Of a stretch of 64,000 bases of DNA, positions 52,224 to 58,200 are shown piece by piece. Every line of letters begins with the position of its first letter. Position 1 is the first letter of the stretch. The position numbers were made by a program, and so were the translations under genes. The notes beneath the pieces are model-generated. The model ran no database searches and had not been told where the DNA came from. It was given only the letters and a program-made list of their open reading frames with translations. This DNA comes from Lepisosteus oculatus (lineage: Eukaryota > Chordata > Actinopteri > Semionotiformes > Lepisosteidae), in assembly GCF_040954835.1 (NCBI RefSeq), contig NC_090718.1, positions 12,663,532 through 12,727,531 of the forward strand, given 5' to 3'.

Positions 52224-55200
52224 TGGCAGACAGTGTCAGGACCTTCCTTTATGGTGTTGCAACGGTCAGGAATCACCCTCTGTCTTCCCGTTTTTTTTCC
52301 CACGTTTCCACCTTGGGAATGTAGCAAATACAGTAGAGAATGTTTCCTCTGTTAAGACAGTACTAAACAAGCTCTCAAGTATTATGTGAAGATCTTAATT
52401 CGATAGTACTGGTTTCTTTGATTGCTATTTTGAAAAGTGGTAAAGCTCTTTGGCTCTGGAATTCAGAATTCATTGCTCATTTCAAAAAGCAAAATCAGAA
52501 TAAATTCAAGGCTGCACATGAGGCAAGTCGGAAATCTCGGCAGCAGTCAGGGCTGCACGGTTTTCCTTTTGCTTGAATGAAAAAGGAGGAGCTGCTTGTG
52601 TTTCCCAACCTTTAAATAAAAAGTTTGTACTCTTGAGTTGTGGCTTTGTGGCTGAACCGTTATTCTATGAATGTATCTCACTTGGCATTCTTGGAAAAAA
52701 TGTATTAAACTGATGCCTTTGTATTGAATAAAACCAGATTTACATGCCTCATATAAAACATTCAGTTGACAACATAGGAACATCAGAATATTCACCATGG
52801 CTGCATAAACAATTTTGCAAGCTGTTTTGAGTTACTTTTCCATCAGAGGAGGCATTCCTACACCAAATGAATACTTTTTGTTTTGCCTAAAAACCCAGCC
52901 AATAAAGGGTTAAATTCCCGAGAAGCACTTAAAGGAAAATCCCGGTCAGCTGGGGTGTGAAGTTGGCTGTGAAATATTTGGAAACTCCAAACCATAAACT
53001 CCCCACACATCCACAGTAAAATTGAGAGACTTAAGCAATTGCTTTAAATGATAGCGGCCGTAGAAATGAACACAGGTTTTTAGTTTAAGGACCACCCAAT
53101 GTTACACAAATATAAGGACGCAGAGAAAATGGCAAAATACCCAAATGATTGCCGCTTCAAAACTGTTTTCGGATTTTACGCATGCTCCCAACGGAAGTGT
53201 GTTCCTTGGCCAGCACAGCACCTGGCAGGCGGGAGAAACTGGGTTTCCGGCCAGCCGTTGAGAGACGGGGACCCCTTGGCCCGGGGTTGCCCTCCTTCCC
53301 TGTGTCACGCCTTGCCCGTTTCCATGCCTCCCCAGGGGATTAAGGATTCCATTCTCGGGATCGGGACCATCTCCAAGCTAGATGCCCGCATTCAGCAGAA
53401 GAGGGAGGAGCAGAGGCGGCGGCGGGCCAGTGGCGCGCTGGCGCAGAGGCGGGCGCAGAGCGAGGAGCGCCGGCAGGAAAGGTAACCCCCCCCAAACCCC
53501 GACGGAGAACGGCCGCCCCATTGTGGGGAAGAGGCCCAAGGGGTGTTTGTCGCACTGTGGTTCCACTTTCAGAGGCACCTTCATTGCACACCACAGTGTG
53601 TTTCACTTGAAGTCGGTTCTCTGCCCTCTGGTTCCCCCTTGAGCCCTGTGACGTGGCAGGTCTAATTCTTTAGCTACGTAATTGTATGACTTTTAACCAG
53701 ATTGCATGGTGTTTTAGAATAATAATTGCTCACACTTATATAGCGCTTTTATGGACCCTCCACTCAAAGCGCTTCACCTGTGATGGGGACTCCACAGCCC
53801 CCATTATCAGCCCCCACCAGGATGATGCGACAGCAGCTACAGTGTGCCAGTCCGCTCACCTCACATCAGCTATCAGTGGGGAGGAGACCAGAGTGATGAA
53901 GCCAGTTCAGAGACGGGGATTATTAGGAGGTCTTGACTGGTAAGGGCCAGGGGGAAATTTAGCCAGGATGCTGGGGTTACACCCCTACTCTTTTCGAGAA
54001 ACTCCCTGGGATTTTTAATGACCACAGAGAGTCAGAGTCAGTCAGAGAGCCTTTAACAGTATAGTGTCCCTGTCATGATACTGGAGCAATAGGACCCACA
54101 CAGACTGCAGGGTGAGCGCCCCCTGCTGGCCCCACTAACACTTCGTCCAGCAGCAGCCTTAGTTTCTCCCAGGAGGTCTCCCATCCAGGTACTGACCAGG
54201 CTCACACCTGCTGAGCTTCAGGGTGATATGACTGCCGGCAATAGGTATATTATAGGTAACTGTGATTTTAATGAAGTGAATTAGCTTAATTGACAACTCG
54301 GGCTGGAACAAGAACCAGAAGAGACGAGGTCTCCCAGGAAGTGAGTTAGACAGCCCAGCAGTAAACAGCTGTAGAGTGGATAAAATTCTTCCTTGCCTGA
54401 CTGTAGTGTTGTGTGTTTTCCCTCAGTGATCCCAAGTTAGCCAGCCGGATTCTGCAGTGCTGTGCGTGGAATGGAGGCGTTTTCTGGGTAAACGTTTTTT
54501 TTCGTTCTGTAATTTGTAGGTGCTGCCACTGTAGAACTGTGAACTCAAATCAGACTGCGAGCAATAAAAGTGAAATTTTGTTATCTAACAGTTGTGTAGT
54601 CATTTGCCATCATTGTGCGTGTACTTGCATGGCAAGATTATTTTCCTGGCAGTAACTATTCATTTGTTGAAAAAGTGACATTGTGTAAAATCTCAGGTGC
54701 ATCTGTAATTGTGAACAGTTTCTGCAGTAAAATTACAATCCAGGAGTTTCTACTGTTCATTTTCAGTAAGTGCTCCATCAAGAGCTCCAACGTTACACAA
54801 TCTGAATAGGAATCGAAACTTGCAAATGATTTTATGATGAGAATATGTTGGACGATGAGGGGTGTGAATGTCTTGAAAGAAATAGCAATATGTGTAGGAT
54901 TTTATGACCGTTTGTTTTGTTTTCTCTCACAGCTCAGTCTATTCCTTTTCTACCGGGTGTTTATCCCACTTCTTCAGACTCTTACGGCAAGAATTATCGG
55001 TATGTGTCGCTTCTCGGGTCAACCTCCAACTCTTTTCCGTGCGGATTCATTGTTCCGATGCATCCCGGCGTGGCTGCGTGGAATCACCTGGACTCCTGTA
55101 GCTTACAGAGCGACGTCTTGTAACTCAGCAGTATGAAGTGGAGCCAGAGAGGAAGAGAACAGCCTGTGGGCGGTGCACGGGTTTTCATAGGAATAAGCAC

Positions 55201-58200
55201 ACGTTGAATACACATTGAGATATGTTCTGCCTACTTCCTGTGCTGATTGTGTGCAGATGTAATTTGGCCTGGATAAGGGCGTCTGCTAAACCAGTAATGA
55301 AGCTGCCTTTTGAATTCTATTTATATGACTTTTCTCCTCTTTCCATCTTCCTGCTGGGTGGTGTAGCTGCCTAGGCTACATTTTTGTATATACTGTTTAC
55401 ACAAGGCTTATAACCCTTTACGCAGCTTTTATATTCTAGATCCAGTTCAAGTTTATTGCCGTATGTACCTTTGTACAATGAAATGCTTACCTGCGTGTAT
55501 TCCTGATTAATGACATGAACATTAACAGGGTAGCAGCTATCATTTTAACCAGCATTTAGAAAGCAGCTGTGTGCAAAAGTTCAGCAGTAGCCGTATTTTG
55601 AGTTCAGGGCACAAACTGAGGAGTGTGCCTGGGGGCGGATTTAAGAGGAGGAGCTGAGGAGTCAACAGGGGGTCTTGTTTTGATCGGTGTGATGCAGCAG
55701 CAGCAGCTCCTGTCTTGGCTTGTAAGATCTCCCAAAGTCTCTCATCTTTTTCAGGCGACCCCTCCTTACACGGCGACGTCTGGTCCTGGCTCGAGTTCAT
55801 CCTGACGTCCGTGTTCAGTGCCCTCTGGGTGCTGCCTCTCTTCGTGCTCAGTAAAATTGTCAACGCCATTTGGTTCCAGGTGGGGTTTGAACAAACTTCG
55901 CGTTGAGGGCTTTATTGCGTGGGGGAGAATGCAGTGTTGAGAATTCTTCTGATCCTCTCCCTCAGGATATTGCGGATCTTGCGTTTGAGGTGTCAGGCCG
56001 GAAACCTCAGCCCTTTCCCAGTGTCAGTAAGATCATTGCTGACATGCTGTTCAACCTCCTGCTGCAAGCGCTCTTCCTCATTCAGGTGCTCGTCTCTGTT
56101 TATTTGGTATTCCAGATGCACTTGGCTTAAATTTGGCCAGCAGCTATATCACCCTGCAGCTCTCAACTGGCTTACCCACTGAAGCTCAGCAGGTGTGAGC
56201 CTGGTCAGTACCTGGATGGGAGACCTCCTGGGAAGCTATGGTTGCTGCTGGAAGTGGTGTTAGGGGGGCCAGTAGGGGGCGCTCACCCTGCGGTCTGTGT
56301 GGGTCCTACTGCCCCGGTATAGTGGGGGGAGGACACTATACTGTAGTGGATGCCGTCTTTCGGATGAGACGTTAAACCGAGGTCCTGACTCTCAGTGGTC
56401 ATTCTCGATAAGAGTAGGGAGTTATCCCGGTGTCCGGGCCTAATCTCCCCCCTCGGCCTTTACCGTGGCCTCCAAATTGTCCGCATGTATGATTGGCCTG
56501 CACTGGCCCTGGGATGGACTGGTGTCCCATCCAAGGCGTACCCTGCCTTGCGCTCGTTGCTTGCTGGGTACACCGTGACACCTTATGGTATAAAGCGGTT
56601 TGGCCAATGACGTGACATGACCTGACATGACTTTGCTCAAATTGCTTAATCTCCATGAATGCTCCTTCCAAGTGTTGAGACTCTGCTTATTAAAAATCCT
56701 CGACCGGTTTACCCTGTGCAGTCGGGTGTCATCTGATTCTGGTGTGATGGCGTTGCTTCTGTCCTTTTCAGGGTATGATCGTCAGCCTCTTCCCCATCGA
56801 CGTGGTTGGTCAGATGATCAGCCTTCTCCACATGTCCCTGCTCTACTCTCTGTACTGCTTTGAGTACCGCTGGTTCAACCACGGTGAGCGTGCACTTCAG
56901 GCCAGCAGCAAAAACAAAGAGCTGCCGGCCTGCAAGCCACCCATTTCATCTCTGGGTATTGCTCGGCCCTGCTGTTGAAATACACATTGTCAGTATGGGG
57001 GGGGGGCCCTCCCGTTAGCTTTTAGGAAGCTGATTTCCAGAAAAATCCCGTTTCAGGAAGAAAACGGGTCATCAATACTTAAACAATCAAAACAAAACCA
57101 TTTGTTTCCCCGGTTTCTCTGAGATGTAAGGCTTTGGAACGTCTCCTGCAAGTGTTTGAATTGAGATGCTCGATCTAGATGCAGATTTGCCGCAGCCTGT
57201 GGCATGAATGTGTGACGTGTGGAAATAAATATTCTGTGTTTTTTGAGCTGAGGCCCATTACTGAGTGCGGGGCAAGCAGCAGGAAGGAAGCACAGCCGTG
57301 CTTTCTAAGTACAAGACATGCAAAAAATGCTCCTTAAGACATAGTTGTGATTGATTTATGTGAGTTACTTGTATGCATGTTCTGGTGATGTAGTGAGAGT
57401 ACCAAGTAGTCTATAGCCAACTGAGTGCCAGGATGAAGTTGTGTTTCTCGGCTTCATATCTATGTACATTCATATCCTGTTTTCACCTGTTCCATAGGTA
57501 TCGAGATGCACCAGCGGCTCTCAAACATAGAGAGAAACTGGCCCTACTACTTTGGTTTTGGTTTGCCAATGGCTCTTCTCACTGCCCTGCCATCTTCCTA
57601 TATCATCAGGTATGACTGGAATGTTTTAAACCTTTAAGGCTGTTTTCGTGCCTCTGGACTTGAGTGCAAATAGAGCCACCCTATAACCCAGATGTTAGCA
57701 GCTCTGTGTTGTGAGACAAGTGTGACTGAGATTCTTCAGTGTGGCGCAGATTCGCCTGCTGGGGGTTTCAGTGGTGCCATTCGCTCTTGCCTCCATACCC
57801 AACAGCCACCTCTCTGATTTTCCAGAAATCCGTGGGCTCATGGTGAATTCAATGCCAATCGAAAGGCCAGTGTCAATTCCAAAGGGGGGAGGGCTTGTGG
57901 AAAGAGCTTTTCTTAACCACAAACATGTCGAATGATTATGCCTTTTCTTTCTCTCCTAGTGGCTGCCTGTTCTCAATCCTCTTCCCTCTCTTCATCATCA
58001 GCGCAAATGAGGCCAAGAGTCCTGTCAAACCTTAGTGAGTCCCACACTCCGTTCTTCCTCCTGCGCCTGCAGAAATCTACAGTTGTTTAGTCAGCTTTAA
58101 ATCTTGAAATCCGCTGCATGTAGATTGTATCGGTTACCTCCTGGAATTCTAGATTCCCTCTCCTTGCATGTGAACCCTTTCATAGACGGTGTTTGAGAAG

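Follow-up and report, generated by a model that had tools for sequence, protein, structure and literature searches.

A 5S-derived short interspersed element of Lepisosteus oculatus with a CTCF core motif at consensus level

Does a short interspersed element (SINE) derived from 5S ribosomal RNA (rRNA) carry a CTCF site through a fish genome as part of its own body? The question is raised by a 64,000-nucleotide stretch of the Lepisosteus oculatus genome, which we call the window (contig NC_090718.1, positions 12,663,532 to 12,727,531; G000:C26:12663532-12727531 in our search of the 1.20-Gb assembly), in which two SINE copies within a putative ei24 gene each contain an exact CTCF core motif. We find that the core belongs to the family rather than to these two copies, that it is dispersed with the SINE in thousands of exact copies, and that the family falls into two clades.

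The first of the two sites, CCAGCAGGGGGCGCT, lies at 54115-54129 on the minus strand, in a copy of the form that we call tail-A, and the second, CCAGTAGGGGGCGCT, at 56269-56283 on the plus strand, in a copy of the form that we call tail-B. Scored with a CTCF matrix (an approximation of the JASPAR MA0139.1 count matrix), they reach 24.1 and 23.4 bits, respectively. An earlier note on this stretch had reported both sequences and their complete match to the pattern; both are read directly at the positions and on the strands it gave, and both match the 14-base pattern CCASYAGRKGGCRS with 0 mismatches. They rank 1 and 2 in a matrix scan of the 64-kb window, and the scan found no equally strong site in 40 simulated 64-kb sequences. 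With at most one mismatch allowed, CCASYAGRKGGCRS is found 8 times in the window vs 1.06 expected, a number attained in 0 of 100 shuffles. Of 20000 trials with a Markov element of 430 bases, none reached 24 bits and 0.025% reached 22 bits.

A profile built with nhmmer from four copies identified six copies in the window, those at 22368-21932, 54244-53851, 14111-13705, 45941-45823 and 1402-1184 on the minus strand and that at 56131-56495 on the plus strand; the core of the element is about 430 alignment columns long. Both sites occupy the same alignment position of this one family, 15 bases 3' of the 5S rRNA-like head, in agreement with the note's placing of them at the same point of the SINE body. 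The 5S origin that it proposed is likewise upheld: the Rfam model RF00001 matches at 54145-54239 minus, 56136-56253 plus and 22243-22362 minus with 46.7 to 51.1 bits (gathering cut-off, 38 bits), and the matches in these three copies span model positions 1-120, showing that the 5S-derived head of a SINE3 is present. In the alignment of one copy to the 5S model, GGTCAGTACCTGGATGGGAG, which we take to be box C of the RNA polymerase III internal promoter, whose other elements are box A and IE, is well preserved.

The copy with the first site covers 53716..54245 on the minus strand by self-BLAST, nhmmer, Rfam and the tree discussed below; its tail runs AAGCGCTTTGAGTGG...AAAAGCGCTATATAA, its ends are approximate, and its 5S head has an internal deletion. 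The copy with the second site covers 56131..56620 on the plus strand (nhmmer for 56131-56495, Rfam and the tree) with a tail of the type GATTGGCCTGCACTGGCCCTGGGATGG... and an approximate 3' end. A third copy, at 21932..22370 on the minus strand (nhmmer, Rfam, tree), is of the tail-A form, with its exact branching in the tree unsupported (0.365), and has a degraded site: aligned at the homologous place, 22212..22230 minus, is GGACCAGCAGGGGGATGCC, with 14.2 bits. The note had credited this copy with a single change, but its 22214-22228 segment, CCAGCAGGGGGATGCCC, has two core mismatches plus one inserted base and is absent from the one-mismatch list. The fourth copy, at 13705..14111 on the minus strand, has indeed lost the site by deletion, seen as a gap in the nhmmer alignment, and apart from the third copy the original observation is sound. 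The fifth copy, at 1184..1403 on the minus strand (nhmmer E 1.3e-16), does not appear in the note; it is old, about 29% off the family consensus, and gave no Rfam 5S match. Where the other copies carry the core it aligns CCAACAGGTGGCGAT, and a weakened CTCF-like site, GAACCAACAGGTGGCGATC, stands at the homologous place, 1302..1320 minus (14.3 bits). This old copy also has a second CTCF-like site, CGTCCAGCAGGGGTTGCCG, at 1225-1243 minus (17.0 bits), about 75 bases off the family position. Among the 20 top-scoring sites listed, none falls there in another window copy, and we rejected this one as the family site, since it is inside the copy but at a different position.

Across the genome, CCAGYAGGGGGCGCT occurs in 8509 exact copies (4234 + 4275), against roughly 4.5 that we calculate for uniform chance. 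The reversed pattern occurs 0 times, a harsh and imperfect control since that pattern is richer in CpG. We classified 28 of the exact places, comprising 8 loci cut out by the genome search and 20 picked from its list of 100, and the SINE profile covers 27 of them (8/8 and 19/20); by proportion, extrapolating from these 28 places, roughly 8200 exact sites would be SINE-borne. The sole exact core of the 28 outside this SINE is at L058:301-315. With 8509 internal motifs and 27 of 28 inside the element, this is a dispersed, high-copy short element, as expected of a SINE3. We give practically no credence to the explanation that both window sites arose by chance in repeats unrelated to each other, refuted as it is by the shared alignment position and by these counts. 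The earlier note had named the absence of the motif from the family consensus as grounds for abandoning its claim; with 27 of the 28 exact sites inside the SINE, and with the core present in the consensus described next, the motif is a family property as it had supposed.

How often the site is exact depends on the sample of copies. In twenty 10-kb regions (200 kb) whose placement ignored the motif, 4 of the 5 site-spanning copies are exact, three of the five sharing one region, and a sixth copy that ends inside the site is uncounted. One 10-kb region, L043 (G000:C7:5000001-5010000), contains a local cluster of three site-bearing SINE pieces, two of them exact. The consensus of 14 rows not chosen by motif (12 lettered at the site and 2 blank), hand-picked as tail-A or from random regions and including two fragments too short to show a tail (L043/353-293 and L045), has CCAGCAGGGGGCGCT, reading GGGGCCAGCAGGGGGCGCTCACCC at the site, with 24.1 bits.

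We also anchored a sample on a 16-mer of the body, GATGAGACGTTAAACC, about 79 bases from the motif and present in 292 genomic copies; 60 of these places were fetched, yielding 43 copies that span the site. This anchor favours copies outside tail-A and is a poor proxy for the whole family, as 36 of the 43 are not tail-A; we judged GATGAGACGTAAAACC the better anchor, and the body-anchored counts rest on GATGAGACGTTAAACC. Exact cores were found in 1 of 7 body-anchored tail-A copies and in 0 of the 36 others, among which 7 attain 18 bits and 11 attain 14, compared with 4/5 in the random regions and 2 of the 4 aligned window copies (plus the one with its site deleted). The share of SINE copies retaining the site is thus known from small samples only, and the tallies of site status and of conservation exclude the site-deleted window copy and a cut-off copy, L050. 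Exact pattern matches in viral contigs (4, 0, 0, 0, 0) and in other genome contigs (24) were rejected as SINE copies and taken as chance, since at these 28 loci the match to one SINE copy extends no further than 16 to 23 bases at the 16-mer. A distant BLAST of one SINE copy against phages and plasmids gave no match.

With the motif columns masked, a FastTree phylogeny of 52 copies, which does not include the 20 anchor places fetched last, separates 18 tail-B copies from 34 others with a support of 1.0. The 3' part of the tail-A consensus is present throughout the group of 34 where the copy is long enough, and in the 54-kb window copy tail-A runs on to a tail ending AAGCGCTATATAA; the group of 18, which includes the 56-kb window copy, does not align to this 3' part. 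As 24 of the 34 come from motif-chosen loci, the tree speaks to the split and not to the frequency of the exact site. The body consensuses of the two forms are 88% identical over 385 columns. The median divergence from the clade's own consensus is 8.4% for tail-B (33 copies) and 5.9% for tail-A (23 copies from motif-chosen loci, the lowest at 2.4%), so that tail-B is the older of the two by a modest margin.

The two clades also differ in the core itself. The tail-B columns read GGGACCAG[C/T][G/A]GGGGG[C/T][G/A]CCCACCC in 20 rows representing 19 loci (one of the rows is blank; the window copy was left out, and L083, L086 and L093 were dropped by hand), with C8/T9/A2 followed by G11/A6/T1 at core positions 5-6 and C9/T9/A1 followed by G11/A7/T1 at positions 12-13. 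Such paired C/T and G/A columns resemble two decaying CpGs and suggest that the ancestor had CCAGCGGGGGGCGCCC (18.8 bits). The tails differ decisively at core position 6, G vs A, that base alone taking the score from 18.8 to 23.2 bits. Tail-B carries a weaker form of the core, CCAG[C/T][G/A]GGGGG[C/T][G/A]CCC, in which G usually replaces the A that CTCF strongly prefers, and the younger tail-A carries the near-perfect form, CCAGCAGGGGGCGCT.

Which form came first can be approached through the four most diverged copies (window 1403-1184, L093, L127 and L086), which are 29-33% off the consensus. The sites are CCAACAGGTGGCG in the window copy (14.3 bits), CCAGTCGGTGGCGCT in L093 (14.5 bits) and CCAGTAGGGGACGGT in L127 (19.8 bits), while the site of L086 is broken and scores below zero; the presence of CTCF-like sites in the most diverged copies suggests that the core may predate both clades. 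If the tail-B form is ancestral, a CpG to CpA change would have upgraded the site before the tail-A expansion. A larger two-step history could be built on this, in which CpG to CpA deamination supplied the critical A to an old 5S-SINE whose core was weak, after which the upgraded subfamily, with its new tail, multiplied and spread several thousand oriented near-consensus sites that could be a large share of the strong CTCF motifs of the genome and could have shaped its domains, in parallel to what is described below for Mus caroli; we regard this fuller history as speculative and, on balance, improbable. A rival history has a strong core ancestral to the whole 5S-SINE family, so that tail-B weakened it and tail-A never underwent a gain of A from G at a CpG. 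It draws on the A at the decisive position of the readable core in two of the four most diverged copies (the window copy and L127) and on scores of at least 14 bits in three of the four; but just four old copies were seen, L093 has a C at the decisive position, and the divergence of the old copies is great enough for each to have acquired A independently. We entertain it tentatively, as a possibility falling somewhat short of even. An ancestral strong core concerns the history of the family and is compatible with the explanation that we favor for its dispersal.

That explanation draws on two known systems. Lee et al. (2022, PMC9341505) give 1016 CTCF-bound sites for the zebrafish element SINE3-1a by footprinting with the assay for transposase-accessible chromatin (ATAC), report SINE3-1 and SINE3-1a as enriched in proximal ATAC peaks, and find zebrafish SINEs over-represented among the CTCF sites within boundaries of topologically associating domains. 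The general claim of the earlier note, that a 5S-derived fish SINE spreads CTCF sites in parallel to the mammalian B2 elements, was therefore already in print, and its interpretation, right in outline, is partly supported. The gar and zebrafish elements are alike as SINE3 by name, a class whose promoter is 5S rRNA-derived according to PMC10886601; the likeness is one of name and description. In Mus caroli a single-base change is reported to have made B2_Mm1 an active CTCF carrier and preceded thousands of new sites, with 4151 B2_Mm1 elements printed as bound (PMC5880236). Like the gar element, B2_Mm1 is a SINE with a CTCF motif; in its case one base change improved the motif, the improved version expanded, and occupancy was measured. 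Mammalian families of other transposons have also been co-opted as CTCF sites in genome folding, co-option being the subject of PMC6979391 by its title.

The family is a 5S-derived SINE with a consensus-level CTCF core that it disperses as oriented sites, and we consider it probable that a minority of these bind CTCF. Because the family body has the core immediately 3' of the 5S head, every new insertion made from an intact copy brings a ready-made, oriented CTCF site with it. As reported for SINE3-1a in zebrafish and for B2 in rodents, CTCF would bind in vivo to a minority of the intact, unmethylated insertions in open chromatin; most copies would be expected to be neutral, methylated, decaying passengers, and a few might become boundary or insulator sites.

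Several results weigh against so active a role. All 28 of the classified exact sites are on one contig, in the first 9.1 Mb of C1, and the exactness of the core depends on the sample, falling to one in seven in body-anchored tail-A copies and to none in the 36 others. The motif columns have no extra conservation over the flanks in either clade: in the 14 copies taken independently of the motif (tail-A or from random regions), its 15 columns match the consensus in 192 of 210 cells (91.4%), with 1324/1410 (93.9%) upstream and 2566/2780 (92.3%) downstream, and in 33 tail-B copies in 373/456 (81.8%) vs 91.5% and 91.9% in the flanks. Nothing in these figures shows selection for binding, and the site seems to decay like the rest of the element or faster, as would be expected for a methylated, CpG-bearing stretch. 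The decayed CpGs within the core point to methylation in the germline, which would be expected to limit CTCF. In zebrafish, transposable elements (TEs) of all classes are described as highly methylated, with only 1-4% of TE CpGs lowly methylated (PMC9341505).

A rival explanation is that the core is a passenger, kept for the sake of the SINE's own RNA or for no reason and having no effect on chromatin, with CTCF absent from the sites in cells because the copies are methylated. The columns free of excess conservation, the CpG-decay pattern and the methylation of zebrafish elements all suit that explanation; the reported binding of the zebrafish relative does not, nor does a consensus match so strong for CTCF that it is unlikely to arise in a random element of such length. 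We think it unlikely that the core is wholly a passenger, while giving that explanation real weight, and we continue to favor dispersal of oriented sites with binding of a minority.

The window contains some further features. The note does not list the 3' fragments of the family: two tail-A 3' end fragments are at 36374..36487 and 19532..19665, both on the plus strand (self-BLAST and sequence), and a tail-A 3' fragment that ends short of the site is at 45823..45941 on the minus strand (nhmmer; extended by self-BLAST to 45708). Matrix sites at 36150-36168 plus (20.0 bits) and 19110-19128 minus (18.7 bits) were rejected as SINE sites, since neither has the position and orientation of the family site within a SINE copy. 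Beside the third copy, SINE-like sequence at 21796-21942 forms a near-palindrome, with a self-match in inverted orientation (149 bases, 94% identity) and weak Rfam hairpin matches on both strands, below their cut-offs. The intronic location of the SINE copies presumes that the gene is ei24, which we take it to be from its likeness to the EI24 protein; Pfam gave no match for the putative ei24 exon pieces. A weak match to the UnaL2 stem-loop of long interspersed element 3' ends lies in the same putative gene at 55258-55290 plus (28.1 bits vs a gathering score of 55). A third exact core, at 58494-58507 minus, likewise missing from the note, is outside any SINE, ranks 3 in the window (23.2 bits at 58492-58510) and overlaps the last codons of the apparent final ei24 coding exon. 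There are thus three strong cores within 4.4 kb, those at 54115 and 56269 in SINE copies and that at 58494 outside them. The two SINE cores, 2.1 kb apart in the putative gene, are oriented away from each other and the exonic core faces the one at 56269.

Within the literature searched, SINE3-1 and CTCF were found together only in PMC9341505, and no report of a CTCF-carrying SINE for a fish other than zebrafish appeared among the matches listed, judged by title or the start of the abstract, subscription literature being mostly outside the search. A text search for the motif sequence returned 3 papers, none of them on fish repeats by title. The carrier SINE is a strong further example of a kind already known from zebrafish and Mus caroli. 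As far as these searches show, it adds a second fish genome, the scale, family-level proof, a contrast between a weak and a strong subfamily, and no signal of selection. Scans of such genomes for CTCF motifs may return this SINE in large numbers, a warning to those who make them. B2 is tRNA-derived, and its origin is thus independent of that of the 5S-derived SINE. Within a single genome, and independently of rodent B2, the weak tail-B and strong tail-A cores together form a natural dose series. Should intact copies be bound, the family would provide lineage-specific CTCF sites in a fish genome that can be counted and dated, and with them a direct way to learn if a burst of new sites rewires chromatin domains or is instead buffered.

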